Made by a program: the position numbers and the translations under genes | Shown: piece after piece, positions 11,767 to 31,004 of the stretch | Layout of the letters: each line of letters begins with the position of its first letter | How positions within the stretch are numbered: position 1 is the stretch's first letter | From: Acetobacteraceae bacterium | Lineage (GTDB): Bacteria > Pseudomonadota > Alphaproteobacteria > Acetobacterales > Acetobacteraceae | Length of the DNA stretch: 40,908 nucleotides | Assembly (NCBI GenBank): GCA_025352995.1 | Contig: JANXRN010000176.1 | Location: forward strand, 1-40,908 | Reading direction: 5' to 3' | The notes under the pieces: model-generated | Databases searched by the model: none | What the model saw: only the letters and a program-made list of their open reading frames with translations | What the model was told of the DNA's origin: nothing

Positions 11767-11883
11767 CTTCTTTTTGTGAACAAAAAGAAGCAAAAAAACT
11801 TTATCCATTCTGGTCGTTGGCTTGGGCGCTTACCGCCGTAGCACGGCAAATTTACAGGTGTTCTTTTTGTTCACAAAAAGAAC
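11767..11883 (+). repeat. paired-palindrome element 1 (terminator-like)
   Basis: The left palindrome (11767-11790, CTTCTTTTTGT / ACAAAAAGAAG around GA) is followed by CAAAAAAACTTTA. A GC-rich core contains CGTTGGCTTGGGC and GCCGTAGCACGGC. The right palindrome (11860-11883, GTTCTTTTTGT type) is inverted. The T7 tract normally found before the right palindrome is eroded here. It starts 10 bp after the thiE stop and ends 16 bp before the convergent gene's stop. The likely role is transcription termination between convergent genes. Confidence 0.8.
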
Positions 11884-11899
11884 ATTCTTTCTTGAAAAC

Positions 11900-12157
11900 C
11901 TAGACCAACGCCGGATGGCGCAAATACCACAGGCGTTCATAGGCGGCGACCAAACTGTCCAGGCTGCGGCGGCGATTTGCGTCGGCCGCCATCGGCCGTT
12001 GGCGCAGCATGTTTTCCAACACGTTCAACAATTGTTCGGCAACCTCAAAATCGCCCTGGTCGCAGGCGTGATGGAATGCGATCAGAATCTTGTCTGACAG
12101 GCGACGGCTATGCCGCGGTGGCGCCGACGCCGATTGGTCACGGCCTATATCGTCCAT
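11900..12157 (-). CDS. conserved small protein of unknown function
   Basis: An 85-residue soluble, helix-rich protein from ATG 12157 (GTG 12166 also possible). The core ILIAFHHACDQGDFEVAEQLLNVLENML followed by RRRSLDSLVAAYERLWYLRHP looks like a conserved alphaproteobacterial small family: an alpha-hairpin repeat then an aromatic-rich C-terminus. No catalytic residues are seen. It is convergent with thiE, with only element 1 between them, and lies downstream of the SCO gene on the same strand with a 60-bp gap. Confidence 0.75.
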   Translation of the reverse strand: MDDIGRDQSASAPPRHSRRLSDKILIAFHHACDQGDFEVAEQLLNVLENMLRQRPMAADANRRRSLDSLVAAYERLWYLRHPALV

Positions 12158-12217
12158 TACGCTCACTCAGACCCCACCCTGACAAAAACCGCTCAAGCGC
12201 GCATTATATCGACATAT

Positions 12218-12838
12218 TCAGCTTCCTGCTAGCCTTGTTCGCAACGTCGCCGTCAATTCTTGCGCCGTGCTCCCTGGGCGATACAATCCTCGTAATTTAC
12301 CGTCCGGGCCCATCAGATAAATGAAAGACGAGTGGTCCATCAGATACTGCGTGGTGTCCTTGCGTTCCGCCTTGGCATAGTAAACCCGATAGGCGCGGGC
12401 GACGGCGGCGATGTCAGCGACGCTGCCGGTCAGCCCGATCAGCCGATCATCGAACAGCTTGACGTAGCCACCGATGATCTCCGGCGTGTCGCGCTCGGGA
12501 TCAATGGTAATGAAGATCGGGATGATCTTGGCAGCGTCCGGCCCCAGCCCATCAAGCGCGGATGCGATGACTTGCAATTCGGTCGGGCAGACATCAGGGC
12601 AGAAACTGTAGCCGAAATAAACCAGCATCCATTTGCCGCGAAAATCTGTGTCGCTAACCGGCTTGCCGGCGCTATCGACCAGCTTGAACGGCCCGCCGAC
12701 GGTGACGCCGGCCGACACCCCCAGCGCATCGCCATCAAGCCCGAGCCGCTTGGCCCCGCCGTTGGTAAACCAGTATCCGCCCCACAGGGCGGCCACAACC
12801 GCCAGCAGCCCATAGGCGGCAATCCTGACGCGACGCAT
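12218..12838 (-). CDS. SCO1/SenC family copper chaperone
   Basis: A 206-residue protein with an N-terminal membrane anchor (RIAAYGLLAVVAALWGGYWF) and a periplasmic thioredoxin-like domain. The copper site FCPDVCPTEL (CX3C) and the distal histidine of DHSSFIYLM are present, as are GKWMLVYFGYSFC and FITIDPERDTPE. SCO proteins deliver copper to the CuA centre of cytochrome c oxidase. ATG 12838 is chosen because GAGG lies 9 bases upstream; the GTG at 12853 lacks one. No oxidase genes are near. Confidence 0.93.
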   Translation of the reverse strand: MRRVRIAAYGLLAVVAALWGGYWFTNGGAKRLGLDGDALGVSAGVTVGGPFKLVDSAGKPVSDTDFRGKWMLVYFGYSFCPDVCPTELQVIASALDGLGPDAAKIIPIFITIDPERDTPEIIGGYVKLFDDRLIGLTGSVADIAAVARAYRVYYAKAERKDTTQYLMDHSSFIYLMGPDGKLRGLYRPGSTAQELTATLRTRLAGS

Positions 12839-12897
12839 GATAAAAACCCTCACTCAATCCTCGATGCAGGTTTTATCACGCGCCATGCCCGCCCGCA

Positions 12898-13947
12898 TCA
12901 GCGCGGGGCGAAGAAATTGCCGTCCGCGGTTGCCATTGCCGCCGTCACGTCGCCGAACGCTTCTTCCCAACTGCCAAGGGTGGATGCCTTGCTGTATTCG
13001 GTGGAGCGGTTTTCGAAGAAATTCGCATGCTCCACCGCATTCAACATTTCATCGAGCCAGGGCAGCGGGTTCTTCTCGACATGATACAGCTCATCCAGGC
13101 CCAACTGGGTTAGCCGGCGATCGGCGATGTAGCGGATATATTGCTTCACCTCGGCGCCGGTCAGGCCCTGGATGTCGCCGAGCTCGAAGGCCAGATCAAT
13201 GAACGCGTCTTCGTGATCGACGATGGTGGCGCAGCACAAATAAAGCTCCCGCCGCAGATCCTCGGTCCAGATTTCCGGGTTTTCCTGCACGAAGGTGCGG
13301 AACAGCTGGATCACCGAAATGCAGTGCAGCGACTCGTCACGCACCGACCAGGAAATGATCTGCCCCATACCCTTCATTTTCCCATAGCGCGGGAAATTCA
13401 GCAGGATGGCAAAGCTTGCGAATAATTGCAGCCCTTCGGTGAAGGCGCCGAAGGCTGCCAGAGTCTTGGCGATTTCGTGTTTATTATCAACCGTAAAGCC
13501 CTGCATGTAGTCGAACTTGTCCTTCATCTCCTTGTATTTGAGGAAGGCGGTATATTCGATTTCCGGCATGCCCACCGTGTCGAGCAAATGGCTGTAGGCG
13601 GCAATGTGAATGGTCTCGGTATTGGAAAATGCCGACAGCATCATCAGCACTTCGGTGGGCTTAAACACCTGGCTGTAATGCTTCATGTAGCAATTATTCA
13701 CCTCGACATCGGCCTGAGTGAAAAAGCGGAAAATCTGGGTGAGCAGATTATGCTCGGACGGGGTCAGATTACGGTGCCAGTCCTTCACGTCGTCGGCCAG
13801 CGGCACTTCTTCCGGCAGCCAATGCACCCGCTGCTGCATCAGCCAGGCCTCATACGCCCACGGGTAGCGGAAGGGCTTGTAAACCGGGTTGGCAGTCAGC
13901 AGATCGAACTGAACGGGAGTTTCGTCGGGCGTGCTGGAAGCGGTCAT
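12898..13947 (-). CDS. nrdB: class Ia ribonucleoside-diphosphate reductase beta subunit
   Basis: A 349-residue radical-generating subunit. Di-iron ligands fit by position: Asp80 (TQADVEVN), Glu111 and His114 (SNTETIHIAAYSHL), Glu171 (TEGLQLF), Glu205 and His208 (VRDESLHC). Tyr118 in AAYSHL is the expected radical tyrosine, so this is a tyrosyl-radical enzyme rather than a class Ic (Phe) type. There is no ATP cone at the N-terminus. It works with NrdA to make deoxyribonucleotides. It is downstream of nrdA on the same strand but 267 bp away, separated by element 2 and with its own NrdR-like boxes, so it is probably transcribed independently. Confidence 0.96.
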   Translation of the reverse strand: MTASSTPDETPVQFDLLTANPVYKPFRYPWAYEAWLMQQRVHWLPEEVPLADDVKDWHRNLTPSEHNLLTQIFRFFTQADVEVNNCYMKHYSQVFKPTEVLMMLSAFSNTETIHIAAYSHLLDTVGMPEIEYTAFLKYKEMKDKFDYMQGFTVDNKHEIAKTLAAFGAFTEGLQLFASFAILLNFPRYGKMKGMGQIISWSVRDESLHCISVIQLFRTFVQENPEIWTEDLRRELYLCCATIVDHEDAFIDLAFELGDIQGLTGAEVKQYIRYIADRRLTQLGLDELYHVEKNPLPWLDEMLNAVEHANFFENRSTEYSKASTLGSWEEAFGDVTAAMATADGNFFAPR

Positions 13948-13998
13948 CTTGGTGCCTGGGTTCGAATCGTTGATGGCCGAGGATAGCGCCGGATGACC

Positions 13999-14045
13999 AC
14001 AAGATATAGAGTGTGAAGGTAAAAAAATCGCAAGATATAGAAGAG
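13999..14045. promoter_or_regulatory. NrdR box pair upstream of nrdB
   Basis: Box 1 is ACAAGATATAGAGTGT (13999-14014), about 13 of 16 matches to the NrdR consensus acaCwAtATaTwGtgt. Box 2 is GCAAGATATAGAAGAG (14030-14045), which repeats CAAGATATAGA exactly. The two are 31 bp apart, three helical turns, the spacing typical of tandem NrdR boxes. They lie about 50-100 bp upstream of the nrdB start. The consensus is recalled from knowledge, and binding is inferred. Confidence 0.7.
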
Positions 14046-14061
14046 CAGGTTAAGGCAAGTA

Positions 14062-14203
14062 GTTCTTTTTGTGAACAAAAAGAACCAAAAAAACTTTTTA
14101 ATACTTAGGTACGGTTGCCGTGCGACTGCGGCCGTCTCCCGAGCCATCGGCCAGGGAGTAGCCAGACAAAGTTTTTTTGCTTCTTTTTGTTCACAAAAAG
14201 AAG
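14062..14203 (-). repeat. paired-palindrome element 2 (reverse orientation)
   Basis: Read on the minus strand it begins 11 bases after the nrdA stop with the CTTC-type palindrome (14180-14203). Then come GCAAAAAAAC, a core with CTCCC...GGGAG and GCACGGCAACCGTAC, an A/T7 tract and the GTTC-type palindrome (14062-14085). The core aligns closely with that of element 4 over more than 50 bases. It separates nrdA from nrdB and should end or weaken read-through between them. Confidence 0.85.
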
Positions 14204-14214
14204 GCCTTACTTGC

Positions 14215-16068
14215 CTACTGACAGGCCAGGCATTCCTCGTAATCCGTCGTCCCCGCCCGCGCCACCAACGGCAACTGGCCTTGATCATTGGCCACCGGAA
14301 TCCCGGTGAACTCATCCGGACGGACGACTTTTTCGGACACCGAGTCCGCCCGCGCAATCGACAGGCTGCGGCAGTAATAGAGCGACTTCACCCCACGCTT
14401 CCACGCCATCATGTGGATCTGGTGCAGATCGCGCTTATGCACGTTGGCCGGCAGGAACAAATTCACCGATTGGCTCTGGCAGATATAGGGCGTGCGGTCG
14501 GCGGCGTGTTCGATCACCCAGCGCTGATCAAGCTCAAACGCGGTGCGATACACCGCCTTGTCCTGGTCATCGAGGAAATCGAGATGCTGGACGCTGCCCT
14601 TGTTGAGGGTGATCGACGACCAGACTTCGTCAGTGTCGTGGCCCTTGAGCGCCAGCAGCTTTTGCAAATGCCGGTTGCGCACCGAGAAGCTGCCCGACAG
14701 CGTCTTTTGCAAGAACACGTTGGCGGCGATTGGTTCAATGCCGGGCGACGCGTTGCCGGCAATGATTGAAATCGACGCGGTCGGCGCGATCGCCATCTTG
14801 TGGCTGAAGCGCTCATGGATGCCGTATTCGGCGGCATCGGGGCAGGGGCCGCGTTCATCGGCGAGCAGGCGGCTGGCATTGTCGGCCTGGGCGCGGATAT
14901 GGGCGAACATGCGCTTGTTCCAAACTTTCGCGATCACCGATTCCCACGGCACGTTCTGCGATTGCAGGAAGGAATGGAACCCCATCACCCCAAGCCCGAC
15001 TGACCGTTCGCGCATCGCCGAATATTGCGCGCGCTCCATGCCCGGCGGCGACCGGTCGATGAAATCCTGCAGCACGTTATCGAGGAAGCGCATCACGTCC
15101 TCGATGAATAGCGGATGGTCTTTCCATTCGAACCATGATTCGAGGTTCAACGACGACAGGCAGCACACCGCGGTGCGTTGCTGGCCGTGCTGATCAATCC
15201 CGGTCGGCAGCATGATCTCGCTGCACAAGTTCGAGGTTTTGACTTCGAGGCCCGCCAGCTTGTGCTGTTCCGGCCGGGCGTTATTCACATGGTCGGAGAA
15301 GATCAGATACGGCTCGCCCGTTTCAATCCGCGCCATCAGGATGCGGATCCACAGGCCGCGGGCGCTGATCTTGCGCACCACCGCGCCATCCTTGGGCGAG
15401 GTCAGCGCCCATTCCTCATCGGCTTCGACCGCGCGCATGAAAGCGTCCGGCACCAGAATGCCGTGATGCAAATTGAGCGCCTTGCGATTGGGATCGCCGC
15501 CGGTTGGGCGGCGAATTTCGACGAATTCCTCGATTTCCGGATGCGACAGCGGCAGGTAAACCGCCGCCGAGCCACGCCGCAAGCTGCCCTGGCTGATCGC
15601 CAAGGTCAGGCTGTCCATCACCCGGATGAACGGGATCACGCCCGAAGTCTTGCCGTTCATCCCGACTTTTTCGCCGATCGAACGCAAATTACCCCAATAG
15701 GAGCCGATGCCGCCGCCCTTGGAGGCGAGCCAGACATTCTCGTTCCACAGCCCGACAATGCCATCGAGGCTGTCGCTGGCTTCGTTCAGAAAGCAGGAAA
15801 TCGGCAGCCCCCGCGTCGTGCCGCCATTGGACAGCACCGGGGTTGCCGGCATGAACCACATTTTGGACATGTAGTCGTAAATGCGCTGAGCGTGGGCGGC
15901 GTCTTCGCCATAGAAGCTCGATACCCGGGCGAACAGATCCTGGTAGCTTTCGCCCGGCAGCAGATAGCGGTCGTCCAAGGTGGCGCGGCCAAAATCGGTA
16001 ATCAACGCGTCGCGGCTTCGGTCAACCCGAACCTCGTGGCGTCCCTGCATCTGCACAACATCAAGCAC
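14215..16068 (-). CDS. nrdA: class Ia ribonucleoside-diphosphate reductase alpha subunit, without ATP cone
   Basis: The catalytic subunit, 617 residues if it starts at GTG 16068, which has GGGGGG 7 bases upstream; TTG 16074 is in frame but only 1-2 bases from that site. Active-site cysteines are Cys92 (GLPISCFL) and the thiyl Cys282 in SNLCSEI with Asn280 and Glu284, with Cys302/303 as the third position. The C-terminal redox pair is CLAC (Cys613, Cys616). The YY radical-transfer pair is in SLYYCRS. The protein is shorter than E. coli NrdA and lacks the N-terminal ATP cone, so overall-activity control by dATP must be absent or located elsewhere. Two NrdR-like boxes lie upstream. Its stop is followed at once by element 2. 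Confidence 0.95.
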   Translation of the reverse strand: MLDVVQMQGRHEVRVDRSRDALITDFGRATLDDRYLLPGESYQDLFARVSSFYGEDAAHAQRIYDYMSKMWFMPATPVLSNGGTTRGLPISCFLNEASDSLDGIVGLWNENVWLASKGGGIGSYWGNLRSIGEKVGMNGKTSGVIPFIRVMDSLTLAISQGSLRRGSAAVYLPLSHPEIEEFVEIRRPTGGDPNRKALNLHHGILVPDAFMRAVEADEEWALTSPKDGAVVRKISARGLWIRILMARIETGEPYLIFSDHVNNARPEQHKLAGLEVKTSNLCSEIMLPTGIDQHGQQRTAVCCLSSLNLESWFEWKDHPLFIEDVMRFLDNVLQDFIDRSPPGMERAQYSAMRERSVGLGVMGFHSFLQSQNVPWESVIAKVWNKRMFAHIRAQADNASRLLADERGPCPDAAEYGIHERFSHKMAIAPTASISIIAGNASPGIEPIAANVFLQKTLSGSFSVRNRHLQKLLALKGHDTDEVWSSITLNKGSVQHLDFLDDQDKAVYRTAFELDQRWVIEHAADRTPYICQSQSVNLFLPANVHKRDLHQIHMMAWKRGVKSLYYCRSLSIARADSVSEKVVRPDEFTGIPVANDQGQLPLVARAGTTDYEECLACQ

Positions 16069-16163
16069 AGCCAATCCCCCCTGCGCGGAACCTCGGCACG
16101 ATCACCTGGTCCGCCGTCTCGGTCCCCATCCTGCCCAATGGGTTGCGCACGTCAATTCATTTT

Positions 16164-16210
16164 TCACTATATGTGGCGCATCCATGCGTTGCGCACACTA
16201 GATGAGGTAG
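16164..16210. promoter_or_regulatory. NrdR box pair upstream of nrdA
   Basis: TCACTATATGTGGCGC (16164-16179) and ACACTAGATGAGGTAG (16195-16210) match the NrdR consensus acaCwAtATaTwGtgt at about 11 and 10 of 16 positions. Their starts are 31 bp apart, identical to the spacing at nrdB. They lie about 95-140 bp upstream of the nrdA start, in an otherwise uncoded leader. Assignment rests on the paired spacing plus the nrd context. Confidence 0.6.
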
Positions 16211-16463
16211 GTGCCACCCTTTCTTCACATGGCTGGCAAGAACGAAAGGGAAACTTAGCGCGCGCGCGTCAGGCGGCCAAGGGGGGCAAGCCAAGTTGTC
16301 CCCAGGATTCACGTTCTTAACCGACAGATGGATTCGGCATTAATCGCCGGTAAGCTCCCCAGCCAACGGCCAGGGAAAACCCGTCGGAAAGTTTTTGTTC
16401 TTTTTGGTAACTGCCCAGGTTCTCCCTGGACCGTACCGCAGGAAGACTAACGCCAAGAAAGCA
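16211..16463. other. non-coding leader upstream of nrdA with a decayed element fragment
   Basis: The stretch from the nrdA start to the aminotransferase stop (16069-16637) has no convincing gene. It holds the NrdR box pair, about 140 bp without recognisable structure, and a decayed copy of the right half of the repeat family at about 16355-16405 (GCCAACGGCCAGGG core, then GGAAAGTTTTTGTTCTTTTTGG). The intact element 3 follows. Frames through this region give only low-complexity peptides from the A/T tracts. Confidence 0.6.
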
Positions 16464-16597
16464 CTTCTTTTTTTAAAAAAAGGAGCAAAAAAACTTTACC
16501 ACTTTGGTTCCGCGCGCTCCGCTGTTGCGGGGGAGGCACGCCAACGGGAAGGAATGGATAAAAAGTTTTTTTGGTTCTTTTTGTTCACAAAAAGAAC
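16464..16597 (+). repeat. paired-palindrome element 3 (variant left arm)
   Basis: The left palindrome at 16464-16485 is a variant (CTTCTTTTTTT / AAAAAAAGGAG, lacking the usual GTGAAC centre). It is followed by CAAAAAAACTTTACCAC, a weakly self-complementary core with GCGCGCTCCGC, then AAAAAGTTTTTTTGG and the right palindrome 16574-16597. The tail CTGCTTGCCTT matches element 4. Unlike the other copies, its left arm is not next to a stop codon; its right arm lies 40 bp beyond the aminotransferase stop. Confidence 0.75.
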
Positions 16598-16637
16598 TGC
16601 TTGCCTTCTGACTTTTCCTGACTTTGAGTCTTTCCTG

Positions 16638-17834
16638 TCAGCTAGCCAAGAAATCCATCGCCGCCCCCACCCCGCCCGCGGTGTGCGGCACGCCGGCAAT
16701 CCGCAGCGCCATTTCCACCGCGCCCAAGGTGCCAAGCACCATCGGCTCATTCAGATCGCCGAGATGGCCGATGCGGAACACTTTGCCATTGAGCTTGCCG
16801 AGCCCGCCGCCGAGCGAAACATTGAAGCGCCCGGCGCAGATTTTGCGAATGGCCTCGGCATCGTGCCCGTCGGGCAGTAGCACTGCGGTGACCGAGTTCG
16901 ATTCGCGGGTTTTGTTGCGGCAGAACAGTTCCGGCCCGTTATTGCCCGACCAGTGCCGCACGCAGCGGCGGACCGCTTCGGCGAGGCGGGCATGGCGGGC
17001 GAACACCTCATCAAGCCCTTCCTCGTCAATCAGTCGGATCGATTCGCGCAAGCCGAAGAACTGGTTGGTCGGCACAGTGCCGATAAAGCTGCGCTGCTTC
17101 CTCGCCGACATCGCCTTCCAGCTGAAATAATGCTTGGGCAGGGTGGAGGTTTCGGACGCCGCCATCGCCTTGTCGGACACGCCGGTGAACGCCATGCCGG
17201 TTGGCAGCATCAGCCCTTTCTGGCTGCCACCGACCACCACGTCGATCTTCCATTCATCCATCCGAAGATCGATGCAGCCGAGCGACGAAATCGTGTCGAC
17301 CAGCAGCAAGGCCGGGTGGCCGGCCGCATCCATCGCGTCGCGGATCGCATCAACCGGCAGGAACATACCGGTCGAGGTTTCGTTCTGCACCACGCAGACC
17401 GCCTTGATGGCATGGGCGGTGTCGGCCGCGAGTGCGGCGCCGAGGGCTGCGATATCAATCCCGTCACGCCAGTCGCAGGCCAATTTTTGCACCGTCAGGC
17501 CAACGTCGCGCATCATGCCGGACCAGCTATCGGAAAACACCCCGGTTTCCGGCACCAGCACGGTATCGCCAGCCGACAGCACGTTCACCACGGCAGCTTC
17601 CCAGGCGGCATGGCCGGACCCGGTATACATGAACATGTTCTGCTTGGTTTTCATGATGCGCAAAATGCCGTCCCAGCATTCGTCGTAGAGCTTCATGAAT
17701 TCCGGCGTGTGGAAATCCACCGCGTGATGGCCGATCGCGTGGAGGATCGATTCGGGGATATTGGTCGGGCCTGGATTGGCAAAAAACAGACGGCCGCGGG
17801 GCTTCTTGGTGGCGGCTTGGACGGTATCGGGCAT
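16638..17834 (-). CDS. class V aminotransferase, serine-glyoxylate/alanine-glyoxylate type
   Basis: A 398-residue PLP enzyme of fold type I. The PLP lysine is Lys206 in VVVGGSQKGLMLPTG. Other family landmarks are LFFANPGPTNIPESI near the N-terminus, YTGSGHAAWEAAVVNVLSAGD, the aspartate region LLLVDTISSLGCIDLRMDEW and the C-terminal FRIGHLGDLNE. Members move the amino group between serine or alanine and glyoxylate, or between related substrates, in glyoxylate disposal or the serine cycle. The exact donor cannot be read from sequence. ATG 17834 has GAGGAAAA 8 bases upstream. It stands alone, divergent from the SNF2 gene. Confidence 0.92.
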   Translation of the reverse strand: MPDTVQAATKKPRGRLFFANPGPTNIPESILHAIGHHAVDFHTPEFMKLYDECWDGILRIMKTKQNMFMYTGSGHAAWEAAVVNVLSAGDTVLVPETGVFSDSWSGMMRDVGLTVQKLACDWRDGIDIAALGAALAADTAHAIKAVCVVQNETSTGMFLPVDAIRDAMDAAGHPALLLVDTISSLGCIDLRMDEWKIDVVVGGSQKGLMLPTGMAFTGVSDKAMAASETSTLPKHYFSWKAMSARKQRSFIGTVPTNQFFGLRESIRLIDEEGLDEVFARHARLAEAVRRCVRHWSGNNGPELFCRNKTRESNSVTAVLLPDGHDAEAIRKICAGRFNVSLGGGLGKLNGKVFRIGHLGDLNEPMVLGTLGAVEMALRIAGVPHTAGGVGAAMDFLAS

Positions 17835-17945
17835 TGGGTCGTTTTCCTCAGGCGATTTCGCCCTAGGTTACTGCCGGGGCACAAGCCTGGCAAATTCGGC
17901 ATCGCCCGCTTTGGCGACTCGCGCGGCCCGCGCCAAACTGTGCCC

Positions 17946-20609
17946 GTGACGGATGATCCGCGAACTTACTCGGGCGCAAATCTCGGCCCCCTTCTGCGCC
18001 TCACCCCGCACGGGCAGTTGCGGCTGGACAAGGCTGGCGACGCGTATGCCCGGCTTGAGGCAGCTTTCGCCGCTGGCAGTGGCACGGGATTGCTGGCCCT
18101 GTGCGCCGCCGATTTAGGGTCCGACTTGCCGCCAGCGCTGGTCTGGTGGCGCGATTTCGCCAACCTCTATCTCGCCGCGATTTGTTTGCTGGGGGAAGCG
18201 CCCGGCGCACCGCCGCCGCCGTCGGATGCCGCGCTTGCCACACTGGTACTGACTGCGCCGATGATGCCGGGGGCCGAATATATTACTACCGACATGCTGC
18301 GTCGCCACTGGGTCGACCTGGATGCAGCCTTTGCCGCCGCCCTTGTGGGCAAGGATCGGCAGGCGGTGATGACCGCGCTGAACCCGGCATGGAACCTGGT
18401 CGGGCGGGTTCATTTCAATTTAGCCGAAAACCGCCGCGACCCCGATCTGCCTTTTGCCTTCATGGCAACTTACACAACTTCTTTGTCGGCCGCGGCGCGC
18501 GCCCAGCATGTCCCGCTCGGCCAGGCGATGCGTGACTATGCCGGCCCAGCCAATCGCGCCCGGCTGCTGGCGCTGTTGCAGCCGGTGCAGCGCGCGGCTG
18601 AAAGCTGCGACTGGTTGCGCGCGATGGTGGAGGGTGGAGAGATTTTCCACCCGCTGCGCTGGACTGCGCCCGAGGCCGGGCGCTTGCTTGCCAGCGCCGG
18701 AGACCTGGAGCGCGCCGGGGTGGTGTTGCGCATGCCGGCCAACTGGCGCGCCAGCCGGCCACTGCGCCCGAAAGTCGCGGCTTCCATCGGCGACAACCGA
18801 CCGTCGCGGGTTGGGCTCGACGGGCTGATGGATTTCCGCATGGAAGTCACGCTTGACGGTGATCCGCTGACCACCGGCGAAATAGCTGACCTGCTGGCCG
18901 GGACGGATGGGCTGGTGCTGCTGCGCGGACACTGGGTGGAGGTCGATCGCGCCCGGCTCGCCAAAACCATGGATGCGTTCAAGCGTGCCGAGGATTTGGC
19001 CGCCCGTGACCAACTGACCTTCGCCGAGGCCATGCGGATGCTGGCGGGCACGGCGCTGACCGCGGATGCCGAAGCTGCGACGAACGCGGATTGGGCGTCG
19101 GTGACCGCTGGACCGTGGCTTGCTGAAGCGCTCCACGCGCTGCGCGCAGCCGACGGCGACATCGATCCCGGCCCGGCGCTGCACGCGACATTGCGGCCCT
19201 ATCAGAAATCCGGCGTGCGATGGCTGCATCTGCTGGCCGAGCTTGGCCTGGGCGCCTGCCTCGCTGACGATATGGGACTGGGCAAGACCATCCAGGTGCT
19301 GTCGTTGCTGCTGGTGCGCCAGAAAGGTCCGAACCTGCTGGTCGCGCCTGCATCTTTGCTGGCCAACTGGCAGGCGGAAATCGCCCGCTTTGCGCCCGGC
19401 CTAAAAGCACGGACCGTGCATCCGTCGGTGATGCCAGCCGAAGAACTGCGGGGGCTGACGCAGGCGGATTTCGACGATTTCGATCTCATCATCACCAGCT
19501 ATGGCGGGTTGCTGCGCATTCCGGCGCTGGCGAAGGCCGCGTGGCGCCTGGTGGTGCTGGATGAAGCGCAAGCGATCAAGAACGCGGGCAGCAAGCAGAC
19601 CCGGGCCGCCAAGGCGTTGCGGGCCGAAGCCCGCATCGCGCTGACCGGCACCCCGGTGGAAAACCATCTCGGCGATCTCTGGTCGATTTTCGACTTCATC
19701 AATCCGGGATTGCTCGGCACCGCCAAACAGTTCGCCGGACATGTCAAAGCCCTGGCCAAGCGCGCCCATAATCCCTATGGGCCGATGCGGGCGCTCGTCG
19801 GGCCTTATATTCTGCGGCGGATGAAGACCGATCGCGCGGTGATCGCCGATCTGCCCGACAAGACCGAAATGGTCGCGCATTGCCATCTCAGCCGCAAACA
19901 GGCCGCCTTGTATGAGCGAACAGTGGCTGATCTCGCGGATGCGTTGGCAGATGCCGGCGGCATGGCGCGGCGCGGGGTGGTGCTGGCGACGCTGATGCGG
20001 CTGAAGCAGATTTGCAATCATCCCTCGCACTGGCTGGGTGACGATGGCTGGGCGGAAGCTGATAGCGGAAAGCTTACGCGTTTGCGGGAAATCGCCGAAG
20101 TCGTTGCCGCACGCCAGGAGAAAATGCTGGTGTTCACCCAGTTCAAGGAAATGACCGCGCCATTGTCGCGGCTGCTCGCCGGGATTTTCGGGCGGCCCGG
20201 GCTGGTGCTGCATGGGGCCGTTGCGGTCAAGGATCGTCGCGCGCTGGTTGATGCCTTCCAGTCCGATGACGGGCCGCCGTTTTTTGTGCTGTCGTTGAAG
20301 GCAGGCGGCGCTGGTTTGAATTTGACCGCCGCAAGCCATGTTGTGCATTTCGACCGCTGGTGGAACCCGGCGGTGGAGAACCAGGCCACCGACCGCGCCT
20401 TTCGCATCGGCCAGAAGCGTAATGTTGTGGTGCATAAATTCAGTTGCCTTGGCACGATCGAGGAAAAAATCGCCAAGATGATCGCTGACAAGCAGATGCT
20501 GTCCGATGAAGTGCTCGCCGGTGGGGGTGAAATCAGCCTGACCGAACTCAACGACAGCGCGCTCTTGCAGTTGGTGGCGCTCGATATCAACGCAGCCTTG
20601 AAGGACTAG
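17946..20609 (+). CDS. SNF2/SWI2-family DEAD-like helicase
   Basis: About 887 residues from GTG 17946 (GTG 17940 also possible). The open frame runs far upstream to 16953, but that part is antisense to the aminotransferase. The N-terminal ~420 residues resemble the accessory region of bacterial SNF2 proteins. The motor follows: RPYQKSGVRWL, Walker A DDMGLGKT (Lys447), DEAQ box (539-542), LTGTPVENHLGDLWSIFDF, and motif VI QATDRAFRIGQKR (from 813). It should be a double-stranded-DNA translocase that remodels protein-DNA or RNA polymerase complexes; the true substrate is unknown. The SWIM-domain gene follows after 4 bp, a recurring partner. Confidence 0.93.
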   Translation: MTDDPRTYSGANLGPLLRLTPHGQLRLDKAGDAYARLEAAFAAGSGTGLLALCAADLGSDLPPALVWWRDFANLYLAAICLLGEAPGAPPPPSDAALATLVLTAPMMPGAEYITTDMLRRHWVDLDAAFAAALVGKDRQAVMTALNPAWNLVGRVHFNLAENRRDPDLPFAFMATYTTSLSAAARAQHVPLGQAMRDYAGPANRARLLALLQPVQRAAESCDWLRAMVEGGEIFHPLRWTAPEAGRLLASAGDLERAGVVLRMPANWRASRPLRPKVAASIGDNRPSRVGLDGLMDFRMEVTLDGDPLTTGEIADLLAGTDGLVLLRGHWVEVDRARLAKTMDAFKRAEDLAARDQLTFAEAMRMLAGTALTADAEAATNADWASVTAGPWLAEALHALRAADGDIDPGPALHATLRPYQKSGVRWLHLLAELGLGACLADDMGLGKTIQVLSLLLVRQKGPNLLVAPASLLANWQAEIARFAPGLKARTVHPSVMPAEELRGLTQADFDDFDLIITSYGGLLRIPALAKAAWRLVVLDEAQAIKNAGSKQTRAAKALRAEARIALTGTPVENHLGDLWSIFDFINPGLLGTAKQFAGHVKALAKRAHNPYGPMRALVGPYILRRMKTDRAVIADLPDKTEMVAHCHLSRKQAALYERTVADLADALADAGGMARRGVVLATLMRLKQICNHPSHWLGDDGWAEADSGKLTRLREIAEVVAARQEKMLVFTQFKEMTAPLSRLLAGIFGRPGLVLHGAVAVKDRRALVDAFQSDDGPPFFVLSLKAGGAGLNLTAASHVVHFDRWWNPAVENQATDRAFRIGQKRNVVVHKFSCLGTIEEKIAKMIADKQMLSDEVLAGGGEISLTELNDSALLQLVALDINAALKD

Positions 20610-22905: not shown

Positions 22906-22911
22906 TCTTGC

Positions 22912-24989: not shown

Positions 24990-25495
24990 GCGCCTGGTGG
25001 GAAATCGTCCGCGACACGTTGAAGCGGTCGGAGGTCAAGCTCGTCACCTACGTGCCGGACAATGTGCTGAACCCACTGATCGCGGCGATCCATGCTGATG
25101 ACTACTTCAACGCCTTCGTCTGCACCCGGGAAGAAGAAGCCGTCGGCATCGTCGCCGGCGCCTGGATGGGCGGGATGCGCGGGGTGGTGATGATGCAGAC
25201 ATCCGGCTTCGCCACCTTGCCGAACGTGCTGGCGTCACTTGCGGTGCCGTATCAAATTCCGGTGCTGATGGTGGTGTCCGAACGCGGCACGCTCGGCGAA
25301 TTCAATATCGGTCAGGCAATGGTGGCGCGCACCATGCGCCCCGCCCTCGATGCGATGGGGATCGAGCATCACACGCTGACCCGCCTGGATGAGGTTGAAT
25401 TCATCGTCGAACGCAGCATCCGCCAGGCGGTGACCACCCAAGCACCCGTCTGCCTGATCTTGTCGCCCATGCTGACCGGGGGGAAGGCGCCATGA
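24986..25495 (+). CDS. ThDP-dependent decarboxylase, PYR-domain subunit (ComD/sulfopyruvate decarboxylase alpha-like)
   Basis: A 169-residue protein from ATG 24986 that is only the pyrimidine-binding half of a thiamine-diphosphate enzyme. CTREEEAVGIVAGAWMGG carries the glutamate (about 49-51) that activates the cofactor; MMQTSGFATLPNVLASL and VPYQIPVLMVVSERG follow the fold. Separate PYR and PP chains are typical of sulfopyruvate and phosphonopyruvate-type decarboxylases. No coenzyme M or phosphonate genes are nearby, so the substrate is open. ATGA overlaps bind it to both neighbours. Confidence 0.85.
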   Translation: MSAWWEIVRDTLKRSEVKLVTYVPDNVLNPLIAAIHADDYFNAFVCTREEEAVGIVAGAWMGGMRGVVMMQTSGFATLPNVLASLAVPYQIPVLMVVSERGTLGEFNIGQAMVARTMRPALDAMGIEHHTLTRLDEVEFIVERSIRQAVTTQAPVCLILSPMLTGGKAP

Positions 25496-26097: not shown

Positions 26098-26107
26098 AAG
26101 TAAGAAT

Positions 26108-26248
26108 CTTCTTTTTGTGAACAAAAAGAAGCAAAAAAACTTTACCACGTTACTCCCTGCCCGTTGGGTCGGGAGCCTACCGCAGGCGCACGGCAACCGT
26201 ACTAAGTGTGAAAAAGTTTTTTTGGTTCTTTTTGTTCACAAAAAGAAC
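26108..26248 (+). repeat. paired-palindrome element 4
   Basis: The left palindrome (26108-26131, CTTC type) is followed by CAAAAAAACTTTACCAC. The core has two small hairpins (CTCCCTGCCC/GGGTCGGGAG; GCCTACCGCAGGC) and GCACGGCAACCGTAC. Then come AAAAAGTTTTTTTGG, the right palindrome (26225-26248, GTTC type) and the tail TGCTTGCCTT. It is the best preserved copy. It starts 10 bp after the ThDP operon stop and ends 26 bp before the enoyl-CoA hydratase start, between genes on the same strand. Confidence 0.88.
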
Positions 26249-26274
26249 TGCTTGCCTTCCTTAGGGAGCCTTTC

Positions 26275-27051
26275 ATGAGCCTCGTTCTACTATCCATCGA
26301 AAACCACATCGCCCGAGTCACGATCAACCGCCCCGAAAAGCTCAACGCAATGAACTCCGCGTTGATAGCCGAGTTCTTTGCGGTGTTCGCGCATCTGGCG
26401 GAAGACCAGGAACTGCGCGCGGTGGTACTGACTGGTGCCGGATCGAAAAGCTTCGTCGGCGGCGCCGATATTGCCGAAATGGGCACGATCCAGACCCCAG
26501 CCCAGGCGCGCGCGTTCATCACCAGCGTGCATCGCTGCTGCGACGCGGTGCGGACGCTGCCGGTGCCGGTGATTGCGCGCATTCAGGGGTTTTGTTTTGG
26601 GGCGGGTCTGGAACTGGCCGCTTCATGTGATTTGCGAGTGGCGGGGCAGGGGGCGGCTTTTGGCATGCAGGAGGTCAAGCTCGGCATCCCGAGCGTGATT
26701 GAGGCGGCGTTATTGCCCGGCCTGGTGGGCTGGGGGCGGACGCGGGAGATGCTGTTGCTGGGCGAGACTTTTTCGGCGGCGGATGCGGCGCGGTGGAATT
26801 TGGTCGAGCGGGTGGTGCCGGATGGTGATTTGGATGCGGCGGTCGATGACTGGCTGGCGAAATTGCTGACCAGCGCGCCATTGGCAGTGCGCAATCAGAA
26901 GGCGTTGATGCGGCGCTGGGAGAGATTGCCGCTGGCCGAGGCGATCCAGGCCGGCATTGATAGTTTTGCCCAGAGTTTTGACAGCGACGAACCCAAGCAG
27001 GCGCTGGGGCATTTTCTGGCCGCAGCGGCAGCGCGCAAACATGGCGTTTGA
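26275..27051 (+). CDS. enoyl-CoA hydratase/isomerase family protein
   Basis: A 258-residue crotonase-fold enzyme with AGGGAG 8 bases before ATG 26275. Family features: VTINRPEKLNAMN, the oxyanion-hole segment KSFVGGADIAEM, IQGFCFGAGLELAASCDLRVA and the catalytic region MQEVKLGIPSVIEAALLPGLVGWGR. The SVIEA variant replaces the GAGGTQ of standard hydratases, so substrate and exact reaction (hydration, isomerisation or hydrolysis) are open. It overlaps the MaoC gene by 11 bp and an acyl-CoA dehydrogenase follows, pointing to a fatty or branched acyl-CoA degradation operon. Confidence 0.92.
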   Translation: MSLVLLSIENHIARVTINRPEKLNAMNSALIAEFFAVFAHLAEDQELRAVVLTGAGSKSFVGGADIAEMGTIQTPAQARAFITSVHRCCDAVRTLPVPVIARIQGFCFGAGLELAASCDLRVAGQGAAFGMQEVKLGIPSVIEAALLPGLVGWGRTREMLLLGETFSAADAARWNLVERVVPDGDLDAAVDDWLAKLLTSAPLAVRNQKALMRRWERLPLAEAIQAGIDSFAQSFDSDEPKQALGHFLAAAAARKHGV

Positions 27052-27514
27052 TCCGGCGGCACATCGGCTGGCAGAGCAGCGCTGGTTCGAGGATTTCAGC
27101 CTCGGTGAAAAATTCAATTTGCCGAGCCGGACGATGACCGAGGCGCTGTTTCTGGCGTTCCAGTCGGCGAGCGGGGATAACCACCCGATCCATTACGATG
27201 TAGAATTTTGTCGCGCGCGTGGCATGCCGCATATGCTGGCGCATGGCTATCAGGTGCTGATCCAGACTGCGGCCGGGGCAGGGATGTTTCCGTTCATGGT
27301 CGAAGATAGTTTGCTCGGGTTCTTGGATCAGTCGAGCCGGTTTCTGGCGCCGGTTTATGTCGGGGATACGCTTTATGGTGCGCTGGAGGTGGCCGAAATT
27401 GCCCCCAATCGGACTACTGGCGTGATCGGGTTGAAGTCCAGCGTGCACAACCAGAAAGGCATACTGGTGATGGATGGGACCCAGCGTTACTTGATAAGGA
27501 AGCGCCCGGCATGA
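27041..27514 (+). CDS. MaoC-family hot-dog dehydratase
   Basis: A 157-residue protein from ATG 27041 (the longer frame back to 26957 overlaps the preceding gene more heavily). The hydratase-2 motif SASGDNHPIHYDVEFCRARGMPHMLAHGYQV includes Asp46 and His51 as catalytic candidates; it is written here by its parts DNHPIHYD and LAHGYQV. It would hydrate an enoyl-CoA or similar thioester in the cytoplasm. It overlaps the enoyl-CoA hydratase gene by 11 bp and the acyl-CoA dehydrogenase by ATGA, so all three are translationally coupled. Confidence 0.9.
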   Translation: MAFDPAAHRLAEQRWFEDFSLGEKFNLPSRTMTEALFLAFQSASGDNHPIHYDVEFCRARGMPHMLAHGYQVLIQTAAGAGMFPFMVEDSLLGFLDQSSRFLAPVYVGDTLYGALEVAEIAPNRTTGVIGLKSSVHNQKGILVMDGTQRYLIRKRPA

Positions 27515-29223
27515 CCGCGATTGCGCCTGATACCACGGGGATGAATTTCTACCGCGCCGATCCGTCGCTCGCTGATTTATTGCGGCTTTATTTGCCGGCT
27601 GATTTGTTCGCCCATATTGATCCGCATCTCGACCGATTGGGCGCATTGGCCGGCGGGCGATTGGATGAATGTGCGCGGCTAGCCGATCGGCACACGCCGG
27701 TTTTGCATCATCGCGATCGTTTCGGACGCGACGTTCAGCATATCGAGTACCACCCGGCTTATCGCGAACTGGAAGCGGCAGCTTTCGGGCAGTTCGGCAT
27801 TCATGCGATGTCGCATCGCAAGGGCATTTTGGGGTGGCAGGGCACGTACCCAAGTGCGGCCAAGCATGCTTTCACCTATTTGTTCAACCAGGCGGAGTTC
27901 GGGTTGGGCTGCCCGATCAACGTGACCGACGGCGCGGCGATGCTGCTGTCGCGCTTTGGCACTGATGAATTGAAAGCGAAATATCTCGACGGCCTGACCC
28001 AGACCGACATGGCGCGCCTGACCCAGGGCGCGCAGTTCATGACGGAGAAAGAGGGTGGTTCGGATGTCGGCGCACTGACCACGCGCGCGGTGCCGGACGG
28101 CGAGCATTTTCGTTTGTATGGCGAGAAATGGTTCTGTTCGAACGCTGATGCGCCAGTGGTGACCTTGCTCGCTAGGCCGGACGGCGCGGGGCCAGGCACG
28201 CGCGGCGTCGGGCTGTTCCTGATGCCGCGCTTTTTGGATGATGGCAGCCCCAATCACTATCGGATCGTTCGGCTGAAGGACAAGCTCGGCACGCGGTCAA
28301 TGGCGTCAGGCGAAATCAGGTTCGAAGGCGCAATTGCCTATCCGCTCGGGCGGCTGGATCGCGGCTTCGTGCAAATGGCCGAAATGGTCAACTGGTCGCG
28401 GCTGTCGAACGGGGTGAAATCTACCGCGCTCATGCGGCGCGCGCTGCATGATGCTGAAACGGTTGCCCATGGCCGCGTCGTGTTCGGCAAGCGGATCATC
28501 GATCTGCCGTTGGCGCGGCGGCAGTTGCTGAAAATCATGCTGCCGATGGAACAGGCCTTGTCGTTATGCTTCGCCACGACGTCCGCCTTGGATCGTGCCG
28601 AGGCTGGCAGCCAGGACGCGGCGACGCTTTTGCGCATTCTGACCCCGGTGCTGAAATTCCGCGCGACGCGCGATGCGCGCAAGGTTTGTGGGGATGCCTT
28701 GGAGTTTCGCGGCGGGATTGGCTATGTCGAGGAATTCGTCACCCCAAGATTGTTGCGCGATGCCCATCTCGGCTCGATTTGGGAAGGCACCGGCAATATC
28801 GTCGCGCTCGATGCGCTGACCCGCGCCGTCGGGCGCCATGGCGCCGAAGCGGCGCTGCTGGCCGAACTCCATGCCAAGCTTGATGATGTGCCAACGGCGT
28901 GGGCAGATCGGCTGCGCGGCCTGGTCGATCGGGCGATCGGATTTGCCCGACAGGTGGCGGGCGATGCCGCGCATGAGGGTGACGCCCGCAAGGCCACCAG
29001 CACGCTGTATCACGTGGCGAGTGCGGTGACCCTGGCGTGGGAGGGCACCCATATCCACGCCGCCTGCGGCGATGCGCGGCGGTTGCTGCTATCGCGGATG
29101 GTGGTGGATCAGCGGCTGACCCCGGCTGATCCGTTTGGGTTGGGCGCCGAGCCGGGCCTTGCGGATGCGGTTCTGGCGGGGCGGGCGGTGCCGATCGACG
29201 AGGCGACAAGATTGCTGATGTAG
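27511..29223 (+). CDS. acyl-CoA dehydrogenase, AidB-like
   Basis: A 570-residue FAD enzyme, longer than ordinary ~380-residue acyl-CoA dehydrogenases and in the AidB size range. Landmarks are FGLGCPINVTDGAAMLL, the flavin-contact stretch MTEKEGGSDVGAL, YGEKWFCSNADAPV, LKDKLGTRSMASGE and the C-terminal FRGGIGYVEE with LGSIWEGTGNIVALD, whose Glu is the usual catalytic base position. AidB in E. coli is linked to alkylation damage; here the operon with two hydratases argues for a catabolic dehydrogenase. It ends at TAG 29221-29223. Confidence 0.9.
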   Translation: MTAIAPDTTGMNFYRADPSLADLLRLYLPADLFAHIDPHLDRLGALAGGRLDECARLADRHTPVLHHRDRFGRDVQHIEYHPAYRELEAAAFGQFGIHAMSHRKGILGWQGTYPSAAKHAFTYLFNQAEFGLGCPINVTDGAAMLLSRFGTDELKAKYLDGLTQTDMARLTQGAQFMTEKEGGSDVGALTTRAVPDGEHFRLYGEKWFCSNADAPVVTLLARPDGAGPGTRGVGLFLMPRFLDDGSPNHYRIVRLKDKLGTRSMASGEIRFEGAIAYPLGRLDRGFVQMAEMVNWSRLSNGVKSTALMRRALHDAETVAHGRVVFGKRIIDLPLARRQLLKIMLPMEQALSLCFATTSALDRAEAGSQDAATLLRILTPVLKFRATRDARKVCGDALEFRGGIGYVEEFVTPRLLRDAHLGSIWEGTGNIVALDALTRAVGRHGAEAALLAELHAKLDDVPTAWADRLRGLVDRAIGFARQVAGDAAHEGDARKATSTLYHVASAVTLAWEGTHIHAACGDARRLLLSRMVVDQRLTPADPFGLGAEPGLADAVLAGRAVPIDEATRLLM

Positions 29224-29285
29224 CGCGTTCGGGAATGTGATATCGATCCCACTAAGGCTAAAAACGAAGAAAGGGGGACGACGTC

Positions 29286-30863
29286 ATGCTGCATCGCCGC
29301 TCATTGTTGCAAGCTACTGCTGCGTCCATGCTGGCAGCCCCCGCCATTGCCCAACCGGCCAAGACCGCGACCTTGCGCTTCGTGCCGCAGGCAAATCTCA
29401 CCTTGCTCGATCCCGTATTCACCACGGCAACGGTTACCAGCAACCACGGCTATTACGTGTTCGATACGCTCTATTCGGTGGGGCCGGACGGCGTATCGCG
29501 CCCGCAAATGGCCGAAGGCCACACGATTTCCGATGACCAGCTGACCTGGCGCATCAAGCTGCGGGAAGGCCTGTGGTTCCATGACGGCACGCCGGTGCGC
29601 GCGACCGACTGCATCGCCAGCATCCAGCGCTGGTCCGTGCGCGATCCGTTCGGCCAGATGGTGGCGGCAGCCGTGGACAGCTACGCGGCCGATGGCGACC
29701 GTACCATTGTCGTCAAGCTCAAGCGGCCTTTCGCGTTGCTGGCGACAGCGCTGGGCAAGCCAGATTCGGCGGTGCCCTTCATCATGCCAGAACGGCTCGC
29801 CAACACCGCCGCCGACAAACAGGTGACGGACATGATTGGCTCCGGACCGTATCGTTTCGTTGCCGCCGAGTATGTCAGCGGCAGCAAGGTCGCGTATGAG
29901 AAGTTCGATAAATATGTGTCGCGTTCGGAACCCGCATCCTGGGCCGCTGGCGCCAAACAGGCGTTTTACCCGCGCATCGAATGGTCGATCATCCCCGATG
30001 CTGCAACGGTCGCGGCCGCACTGCAAAATAACGAAATCGACTGGTGGGAACAACCGCTTGCCGATCTGCTGCCCAAACTGGTGGCCGACAAGAACATCGC
30101 GCTGCAAATCGATCAGCCCTGGGGCCGCACCTCCGAACTGATCATGAACCAGATGCAGCCGCCGTTTAACGACGTCCGGGTGCGCCGCGCGGTGATGATG
30201 GCGGTGCGGCAGGAAGACTACATGCGCGCCTGTTTCGGCGATGATCAATCGCTGTGGCGGGTCAGCAAGGACGTCTTCCCATTCGGCACGCCCTATTACA
30301 CCGGCGCCGACAGCGACCGGATGGCCGGTGACCTCGCACTCGCCAGTAAAATGCTGAAAGAATCCGGTTATGCTGGGCAGAAAGTCGTCGTGATAAACCC
30401 GACCGATTTCCCCGCCATCCATCCGCTCGGCCTGGTGACCGCCGATACGCTGAAAAAAATCGGCATGAATGTCGATTTGCAGGAAACCGACTGGGGCACC
30501 GTGGTGCAGCGGCGATCGAGCATGGAACCGGTGGAGAAGGGCGGGTGGAGCGTTTTCCACACATTCTCATCATCTGTCGCACTTGCCACGCCCGCGACCC
30601 ATCCGCTGATCAATGGCCGCGGCGCCAAAGGCTGGTTCGGCTGGTGGGATAGTGCGGACGCCCGCACCCTGACCGAACAATGGGTCGCCGCCCCCGACCT
30701 CGCCGCCCAGGAAAAGGCCGCCAAGGCGCTGTCGCGTGTCGCGATGACCGATGTTGGCGCCACCATGGTTGGGCAATGGTATGGCAAGACCGCCTATCGC
30801 CGCAGTATTGCCGGGGTGTTGCAGGGCGTGGCGCCGTATCCGTGGAATGTTCGGCCGTCGTAG
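29286..30863 (+). CDS. peptide/nickel-type ABC transporter substrate-binding protein (SBP_bac_5), stand-alone
   Basis: A 525-residue exported protein. The N-terminus HRRSLLQATAASMLAAPAIAQP is a Tat-like signal peptide with cleavage near AIAQ. The mature protein shows the family 5 landmarks LTWRIKLREGLWFHDGTPVRATDCIASIQRW, MIGSGPYRF and FNDVRVRRAVMMAV. It would bind peptides or other ligands in the periplasm. No permease or ATPase lies next to it, so it may serve the importer at 34005-38994 or one elsewhere. AGGGGG lies 9 bases before ATG 29286. Element 5 follows the stop after 6 bp. Confidence 0.92.
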   Translation: MLHRRSLLQATAASMLAAPAIAQPAKTATLRFVPQANLTLLDPVFTTATVTSNHGYYVFDTLYSVGPDGVSRPQMAEGHTISDDQLTWRIKLREGLWFHDGTPVRATDCIASIQRWSVRDPFGQMVAAAVDSYAADGDRTIVVKLKRPFALLATALGKPDSAVPFIMPERLANTAADKQVTDMIGSGPYRFVAAEYVSGSKVAYEKFDKYVSRSEPASWAAGAKQAFYPRIEWSIIPDAATVAAALQNNEIDWWEQPLADLLPKLVADKNIALQIDQPWGRTSELIMNQMQPPFNDVRVRRAVMMAVRQEDYMRACFGDDQSLWRVSKDVFPFGTPYYTGADSDRMAGDLALASKMLKESGYAGQKVVVINPTDFPAIHPLGLVTADTLKKIGMNVDLQETDWGTVVQRRSSMEPVEKGGWSVFHTFSSSVALATPATHPLINGRGAKGWFGWWDSADARTLTEQWVAAPDLAAQEKAAKALSRVAMTDVGATMVGQWYGKTAYRRSIAGVLQGVAPYPWNVRPS

Positions 30864-30869
30864 GAAGGT

Positions 30870-31004
30870 CTTCTTTTTGTGAACAAAAAGAAGCAAAAAA
30901 ACTTCATCTATTGTTGCCGTTGGCTTGGGTCTGCGGAGGGACCCGAGCCAACAGCAACAATCGTGAAAAAGTTTTTTTGGTTCTTTTTGTTCACAAAAAA
31001 GAAC
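30870..31004 (+). repeat. paired-palindrome element 5 with long central hairpin
   Basis: Left palindrome 30870-30893, A7 tract 30895-30901, then a central hairpin: arms 30910-30931 and 30940-30961 pair at 20 of 22 positions plus one G-U, with an 8-base loop. T7 at 30972-30978 and the right palindrome (30980-31004, one extra A) follow. A GC-rich stem flanked by A7 and T7 is the textbook shape of a bidirectional intrinsic terminator. It exactly fills the space between two convergent stop codons (30863 and 31013). Confidence 0.9.

Follow-up and report, generated by a model that had tools for sequence, protein, structure and literature searches.

A probable family of REPIN-like miniature elements, without a detectable RAYT, behind the stop codons of Acetobacteraceae

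Five intergenic repeats in the window, a stretch of 40,908 nucleotides of an Acetobacteraceae genome (contig JANXRN010000176.1), probably belong to a previously undescribed REPIN-like family of miniature elements in this bacterial family, and the family looks to be slowly spreading. The unit is a doublet made of a pair of inverted half-modules, each running from an outer repeat of ~11 bp through a 24-bp palindrome and an A7 (or T7) tract to 25-30 nt of GC-rich sequence that is specific to the subtype; several combinations of such halves yield mosaic cores. Copying would proceed without target-site duplication, by a single-strand or a recombination/gene-conversion-like route, and a trans-acting factor may drive the spread. 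The doublets would settle behind stop codons, and the family may persist because a structured 3′ end at that point is tolerated or useful, either as a terminator or in mRNA-end protection. A longer form with the gene for a 172-amino acid (aa) protein is probably a captured passenger that was amplified in the lineage of the source genome. No mobilising enzyme was found in the searches described below. The family shows that doublets of the REPIN kind can attain copy numbers in the hundreds in a genome without a detectable RAYT, while many genera have the same ends, and it makes the persistence of such sequence populations testable in another group. Their position, about 11 bp or less from stop codons, points to either an uncommon choice of target or strong selection on the 3′ ends of mRNAs, and the long form brings to light a widespread orphan protein family.

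All five elements were recovered where a preliminary description of the window had placed them (Table 1), with 9 of their 10 palindromes matched at ≤3 mismatches and none in 100 dinucleotide shuffles. The layout described for them, i.e., palindrome, A7, GC-rich core, T7, and palindrome, holds generally, except that element 1 has no T7 tract on its right side and the left palindrome of element 3 is a degenerate 22-nt version, missed by the search pattern. The core halves of element 3 resemble types B and D (as judged by eye), and the right palindrome of element 5 carries one additional A. The reported likeness between the cores of elements 2 and 4 is genuine (87% complementarity over 95 nt when one core is inverted), and the shared ancestry of the copies is likewise supported; copies from the source genome align to element 4 from about 26098 to 26262. 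Conserved outer ends also exist, but they are looser than described: a consensus drawn from 158 ends, chiefly of the source genome with some from congeners' loci, gives GAAGGMAAGCW beside G-type ends and a weaker signal beside C-type ends. Counting the outer repeat, palindrome, and A/T tract together, terminal inverted repeats of ~47 bp are present. An Rfam scan of the window returned one tRNA and no other match above the gathering score.

Table 1. The five elements in the window
Element	Coordinates	Strand	Anatomy
Element 1	11767-11883	+	C-end palindrome 11767-11790, A7 tract, core, G-end palindrome 11860-11883
Element 2	14062-14203	- (reverse polarity, opposite to the other copies)	G-end palindrome on the left, 14062-14085; C-end palindrome 14180-14203
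Element 3	16464-16597	+	T7 and right G-end palindrome 16574-16597 intact
Element 4 with outer repeats	26098-26263	+	palindromes 26108-26131 and 26225-26248
Element 5	30870-31004	+	fills a convergent gap

The doublet is the prevailing arrangement in a sample of 61 stretches of the source genome (843,790 bases or 0.84 Mb, many picked for holding elements): its 223 halves form 74 inward-facing pairs at 114-142 nt versus one outward-facing and three same-direction pairs, while unpaired halves are frequent (49/223). One C-type end is combined with one G-type end in 48 of 55 doublets. The cores are mosaics of half-modules, and their sequence varies from genus to genus. A C end that comes first along transcription was the commoner arrangement in a small sample (15 vs 5, p=0.04); this weakened to 23 vs 15 in a larger one, and a fixed polarity of the palindromes along transcription is therefore not claimed.

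The elements fold well, with z-scores from -3.5 to -14.7 over eight strand/element combinations; seven of these eight foldings give one long hairpin, element 3 forms separate hairpins, and element 5 has the strongest core stem among the elements folded. The end palindromes covary: changes on both sides occur at 5 of 10 pairs, with a score of 0.311 against 0.084 for shuffled sequences, and slid controls show none or one pair changed on both sides. The input to this test was 26 of 48 distinct palindromes, gathered with a filter of at least 9/10 pairing. In a tally of 60 distinct 24-mers taken irrespective of pairing, pairs 1, 3, 8, 9, and 10 show 15, 5, 10, 1, and 26 compensated changes and 12, 8, 3, 1, and 6 broken pairs, respectively.

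Several known repeat systems resemble these elements in part. Correia/NEMIS, RIME, and BIME elements are, like the doublets, intergenic, about 100-160 bp long, and built of inverted ends or mosaic halves; their sequences are not known to match those of the doublets. Correia elements make a TA duplication, whereas none was seen for the doublets. In the REPIN/RAYT system, a palindromic unit occurs in hundreds of copies as inverted doublets, the two units being separated by a variable spacer that forms a hairpin (Bertels and Rainey, 2011; PMC3116915); the same text also names BIMEs. Common to both systems are the hundreds of copies, the inverted doublets, the hairpin-forming variable spacer, the extragenic location, and the additional presence of single halves. 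Compared with that account, the Acetobacteraceae halves are larger (~11-bp outer repeat, 24-bp AT-rich palindrome, A7, and GC module), the same ends occur across several genera, singlets are not clearly more decayed, and there is neither a GTAG/CGTC head nor a Y1 transposase gene in the source assembly. The earlier comparison with REPINs thus stands for the doublet layout, but not in the strict sense: both heads are absent from the 158 ends, and a search for the RAYT transposase (Y1_Tnp, PF01797) gave 0 matches in the source assembly (97.99% complete), while the same search was positive in 5 of 14 control genomes. Two further points may count against the preferred reading: single halves are common, and, unlike in REPINs, their scores (median of 45.0 bits) do not fall significantly below those of doublet halves (45.3 bits; p=0.087).

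The GTAG- and CGTC-tagged REPs are palindromic, abundant, and partly RAYT-linked, with the CGTC type being frequent in alphaproteobacteria and, according to its discussion section, absent from Acetobacteraceae (PMC3733652); the elements reported here are comparably palindromic and abundant, but carry neither tag. Similarly, the pneumococcal SPRITE, BOX, and RUP are interspersed repeats with predicted folding, as is the Acetobacteraceae family. SPRITE, with 30 copies in the genome studied and short AAAA/TTTT ends, is terminator-like and enriched near CDS 3′ ends, its target-site duplication not being established, and BOX is modular; the accessible part of that source describes neither a nested-palindrome doublet nor a gene-carrying form for any of them (PMC3049150). 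In the open-licence PMC text, we found no paper with the four palindrome sequences and no named palindromic intergenic repeat family of Acetobacteraceae.

The elements had also been likened to MITEs. A classical MITE, i.e., an internally deleted IS with a transposase acting on these terminal inverted repeats, would account for the long inverted ends, the hundreds of copies, and the short and long forms, which look like products of internal deletion. However, 51 complete elements, all flanked by 40 bp on either side, gave no clear enrichment of target-site duplications (offsets 0-19; lengths 2-6, 8, and 9), none of the 13 long inward pairs in the 0.84 Mb sample showed a transposase, and no IS with matching ends was seen in the part of the genome read. 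The strict MITE interpretation is accordingly not supported, and we regard an origin of this kind as hardly probable.

The doublets are located 3′ of genes. By gene calls from a crude codon-usage method, they occupy 22 of 123 convergent, 3 of 95 divergent, and 45 of 498 co-directional gaps, with none inside called genes and 4 of the 74 doublets having no gene context; the distance on the stop side is ≤20 bp in 66 of 89 cases (median 11 bp). In the window, element 1 begins 10 nt past the stop of a forward-strand gene (11127-11756; thiE by NCBIfam) and faces a called reverse-strand ORF ending at 11900, element 2 is flanked by the reverse-strand genes for the alpha (14215-16074) and beta (12898-13947) subunits of ribonucleotide reductase, and element 5 lies 6 nt past a forward-strand stop (30863) and 8 nt before the end of a reverse-strand gene (31013). 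A putative terminator role of the doublets is plausible, as it fits this position directly behind stop codons. A simple scan for terminators gave 20 sites where 20.7 were expected, i.e., chance level, and the core stem of element 5 is separated from the T7 tract by ~10 nt.

Occupancy differs among congeners, some sites being common to them and others empty; hence, the copies are not all static at orthologous positions. On contig C406 of the source genome, sites D and E are each occupied by a doublet and site C by a single half, and the corresponding gaps of the congener G193 lack them; site E is vacant in G200 as well. The difference at site E might be a gain here or a loss in G193 and G200. 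The gap of element 2 contains degraded, changed, or longer versions in G193, G089, G150, and G103, and no version was seen there in G055 and G119; G103 lies outside the genus. The site of element 4 is occupied in G193, G089, and G200 with nearly identical ends and a core different from that of the source genome, such that across four species the core was replaced at a kept site. No fresh insertion was caught, because the congeners are just about 78-90% identical.

These observations bear on the alternative that the doublets are host-maintained 3′-end modules (bidirectional terminators or mRNA stabilisers) at fixed sites, homogenised by gene conversion and not transposed. The placement close to stop codons, the convergent enrichment, the conservation of ends while the core is exchanged at an orthologous site, and the four genomes with some version in the gap of element 2 all agree with it. 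Nevertheless, the vacant orthologous sites, the end numbers that differ fourfold among congeners, the two genomes with nothing in the gap of element 2, the doublets between co-directional genes (among them the ribonucleotide reductase pair, for which termination would come at a cost), and the chance-level terminator scan speak against it, and we consider it unlikely.

A REPIN-like family that spreads is compatible with the copy numbers. The predicted hundreds of copies per genome proved right, with 239 + 230 matches in the source genome at ≤3 mismatches and 242 + 237 (479 in all) for the 32-base end at ≤2, and 0 for the reversed control both times. Four members of the genus have 479 (source genome), 107, 120, and 104 ends in a count across genomes that left out G200, and ends were found in 17 of 102 sampled Acetobacteraceae genera, many of the assemblies being fragmented MAGs in which repeats break contigs. 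Full-length copies of the source genome are 91% identical to element 4 and those of congeners about 83%. Amplification in this lineage is supported by the end counts and by this higher likeness of its own copies. Searches with element 4 (blastn) against plasmid and phage collections gave no match.

The long form, which the preliminary description had missed, has the same ends, mostly measures 760-792 bp, and encloses the gene for the 172-aa orphan protein. This protein has 48 matches in the source genome, and its gene is present in 43 of 200 sampled Acetobacteraceae genomes. Among the 13 long inward pairs of the 0.84 Mb sample, nine contain this gene, one a second MITE, and three host-like genes as read from translations (an esterase at L271, a RuvX-like protein at L389, and an enoyl-CoA hydratase with a Sir2-like protein at L405). 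As some long inward pairs merely bracket host-like genes, gene capture as a general rule was rejected. In a gene tree from which unlabelled loci and those with short hits had been left out, 17 copies of the source genome and one of G193 form an expansion of the source lineage, and 10 of these have the same left half and junction. The right ends of this clade, compared in 16 of the 17 copies (one had no right end), are conserved beyond neutral expectation, with a median pairwise difference of 0 (mean 0.048) over 31 positions against a median pS of 0.54 for adjoining genes.

Searches with the 172-aa protein gave nothing significant in Pfam and PADLOC (26 members each; best Pfam E 0.071) or in NCBIfam and PHROGs (three members each), a best E of 0.27 with a PDB sequence profile, and no Foldseek match at E≤0.001. 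Compared as a Dps/ferritin-like bundle, it reaches a VIA Z of up to 6.8, a level usual for helical bundles. Plasmid and phage collections gave no tblastn match, and viral contigs no relative.

It is conceivable, if quite improbable, that the halves of a RAYT-free REPIN-like system are recognised and copied by this element-borne orphan protein, which is all-helical and would be unlike known transposase families, or by a relative encoded at another place in the genome, and that placement is linked to the 3′ ends of genes. The protein would then be the mobiliser, a new kind of RAYT equivalent, with autonomous long elements and short doublets as their non-autonomous derivatives; this overlaps with the preferred explanation and is similarly improbable. 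In its favor are the expansion in the source lineage, the purifying selection on the gene (median dN/dS 0.31), its presence in 19 of 21 genomes with at least five ends vs 23 of 171 with none, and, in 22 of 26 gene copies, a palindrome at most 230 bp downstream; 10 of the 26 have a close upstream palindrome. On the other hand, G081 (69 ends) and G031 (8 ends) have no match to the gene, the four copies inspected in G119 (418 ends) are not enclosed within ~170 nt on each side, none of 11 copies from G193 shows a left half within ~170 nt, many congener copies are orthologous and therefore old, and no family or fold match points to an enzyme. A mobilising role of the 172-aa protein is only a possibility, since the gene also occurs in genera that lack these ends; G091, G092, and G151 have many copies of it and no matching ends. 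A GTTACGATATCGTAAC motif is located behind the 172-aa gene.

The five paired-palindrome elements claimed for the window in a preliminary description are all read there, and 9 of their 10 palindromes match TTCTTTTTGTKMACAAAAAGAA with at most three mismatches, a pattern with 0 matches in 100 shuffles. The standard anatomy, drawn from 55 doublets (pairs of inverted halves) of the source genome, comprises an outer repeat, the palindrome CTTCTTTTTGTGAACAAAAAGAAG, CAAAAAAACTT, a GC-rich core, AAGTTTTTTTG, the palindrome GTTCTTTTTGTTCACAAAAAGAAC, and the inverted outer repeat, with one C-type and one G-type end in 48 of the 55; the outer repeat is GAAGGMAAGCW at G-type ends and looser at C-type ends. 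The uniform architecture attributed to the five copies holds as a general layout, from which elements 1, 2, and 3 each depart (table). Just ahead of element 3, 16388-16430 carries what remains of a right half (AAAGTTTTTGTTCTTTTTGG) with AACTGCCCAGGTTCTCCCTG as its tail; comparable tails stand behind a broken end in locus L123 and at site A of the source genome (locus L287 near 2100).

Positions and peculiarities of the paired-palindrome elements in the window
Element	Position	Anatomy	Location
Element 1	11767-11883	without T7	
Element 2	14062-14203	reversed polarity	gap between two ribonucleotide reductase genes
Element 3	16464-16597	left palindrome decayed	
Element 4	26108-26248		
Element 5	30870-31004		

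The expectation of hundreds of copies per genome is borne out by the source assembly (4.5 Mb, 558 contigs), in which 479 sites match the 32-nt end (≤2 mismatches; 242 in forward and 237 in reverse orientation), against 0 for the reversed pattern at the same threshold. A profile search of 61 stretches of this assembly (843,790 bases, many picked for holding elements) recovered 223 halves after removal of the opposite-strand echo of each palindrome, and 0 in reversed sequence. Most of these halves are arranged in inward doublets 114-142 nt in length, of which there are 74, as against 1 outward and 3 same-direction neighbors within 250 nt, so that doublets are the unit normally seen in the family; in addition there are 49 single halves and 13 inward pairs of greater length. 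Of 200 genomes sampled from the family Acetobacteraceae, 29, representing 17 of 102 genera, contain ends (≤2 mismatches), and 8 of the 29 have only 1-3 of them. Relatives are named as Acetobacteraceae and Rhodospirillales MAGs, part of them labelled Asaia bogorensis. Within the genus, G089, G150, and G193 have 107, 120, and 104 ends, respectively, versus the 479 of the source genome, and identity to element 4 reaches 91% among copies of the latter and about 83% among full-length copies of the congeners.

Gene context, based on gene calls by a simple codon-usage method, was obtained for 70 of the 74 doublets, none of which lie inside a called gene: 45 fall in the 498 co-directional gaps, 22 in the 123 convergent ones, and 3 in the 95 divergent ones (convergent versus divergent occupancy, p = 5e-4). 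The distance on the stop side is ≤20 bp in 66 of 89 cases (median 11), compared to 4 of 51 on the start side; these short stop-side distances indicate that the outer repeat mostly starts at or adjoins the stop codon. We infer a role at the 3' ends of genes. RNA folding of the window elements yields z-scores of -3.5 to -14.7, with one long hairpin in 7 of 8 foldings and separate hairpins in element 3.

Compensated changes separate distinct palindromes, with both sides changed at 5 of 10 pairs; covariation is 0.311 versus 0.084 in shuffled sets, and slid controls give 0 or 1 pair, in a test using 26 of 48 variants gathered with a pairing filter. Among 60 variants gathered without this filter the same pairs are compensated, and broken cells occur at every pair too. 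The cores are mosaic: the 25-30 nt adjoining the A7 tract belong to a few half-types that are variously combined (A+R, 17 doublets; G+R, 7; T+D, 4; B+S, 4; B+D, 3; D+B, 3), and in other genera (G055, G103, G119, G020, G043, G031) the inner end sequence is constant and the cores are different. The element 4 site is occupied in the source genome, G193, G089, and G200, across which the surrounding regions align at ~80-84%. Since the ends at this shared site are nearly identical (the single mismatch is in the right palindrome of G089) and the core of the source genome is of another type than that in the other three, the core has been replaced at a kept site, with gene conversion as the likely cause.

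Empty sites, a check named in the preliminary description, are seen for contig C406 of the source assembly, which has three occupied gaps, C with a single half and D and E with doublets: the matching gaps of G193 are all without an element (C and E compact, D filled with unrelated sequence), and E is empty in G200 as well. In the element 2 gap, G193, G089, and G150 have remnants or variant copies, G103 has a long one, and no element is seen in G055 or G119. On C406, synteny with G193, G089, and G150 is broken at a GTAG-REP pair (L287 8374-8494), which suggests a rearrangement at repeats.

In a long form of the element on another contig of the source assembly (C78; L015/L111), family ends lie 767 bp apart with an ORF for a 172-aa protein between them. 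This protein has 48 matches in the source genome, part of them cut by contig ends and none with internal stops. Among 26 near-full copies, a palindrome is located ≤230 bp 3' of the gene in 22 and 111-152 bp 5' of it in 10, and 8 are complete long forms of 760-792 bp. In aligned flanks, ten copies share a common left half and junction, followed by a promoter-like TTGACA, the gene, a GTTACGATATCGTAAC-like motif, and the right half; another set has the right half only. The gene tree unites 17 own copies and one G193 copy in a clade (pairwise dN/dS 0.12-0.49, median 0.31) adjoined by L128, and seven further own copies are interleaved with congener copies, many apparently orthologous. The long-form genes (17 copies) have a median pairwise synonymous difference of 0.54, whereas among the 16 right ends found beside them the difference across 31 positions has median 0 and mean 0.048, in line with constraint on the ends. 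The protein is modeled as mostly helical (pLDDT 79), with no match standing out in a fold search and no significant match among curated families.

The gene is found in 19 of the 21 genomes that have five or more ends, versus 23 of the 171 that have none (same 200 genomes), a distribution that might point to the 172-aa protein as the mobiliser of the elements. However, ends are present in G081 and G031, where a match to the gene was not found; in G091, G092, and G151 the gene is present in many copies and matching ends are absent; the four inspected copies in G119 are not enclosed by ends within flanks of roughly 170 nt; and in G193 the left half is seen in 0 of 11 inspected copies and a clear right half in three, within flanks of this length. 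We hence favor as more likely that the gene is a passenger, captured and amplified together with the element. Dispersed copies of this orphan family are numerous in G091, G020, G151, and G193 (L331-L369), and many of those inspected across genera share a promoter of the TTGACA type and, ~20-45 nt past the stop, a GTTACGATATCGTAAC-like motif. At L389 15214-15856, a gene that reads in translation as RuvX-like is flanked on both sides by inward-facing halves, which gives it the look of a captured gene, though the two halves are possibly independent.

The proposal of a REPIN or MITE carrying a terminator stands with respect to layout, which works as in REPINs (PMC3116915). It fails in that the family ends are without the defining GTAG/CGTC head, the defining Y1/RAYT transposase gene was not found in the source assembly, and target duplication, a feature of MITEs, gave no signal among 51 complete elements. 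A consensus terminator scan returned 20 sites versus 20.7 expected. The closest counterparts by position and terminator-like character are SPRITEs (PMC3049150), from which the family differs in anatomy and scale. We file it as a variant form of miniature palindromic element, outside the REPIN, MITE, and SPRITE families. GTAG-type palindromes (e.g., GGTGCAGTTCCAAGCGGAACTGCACCCTACG) occur 3' of the 172-aa gene in L133, L135, L136, L138, L139, and L140, and also around 8400-8480 of L287, the source genome being without a detected Y1 transposase. A second short repeat, with arms CTAGTGGATAGAATCTGACGG...CCGTCAGATTCTATCCACTAG (L287 ~17835-17946, the 3' flank of L127, and L392 18033-18301), adjoins or sits within elements of the paired-palindrome family and looks like another MITE.
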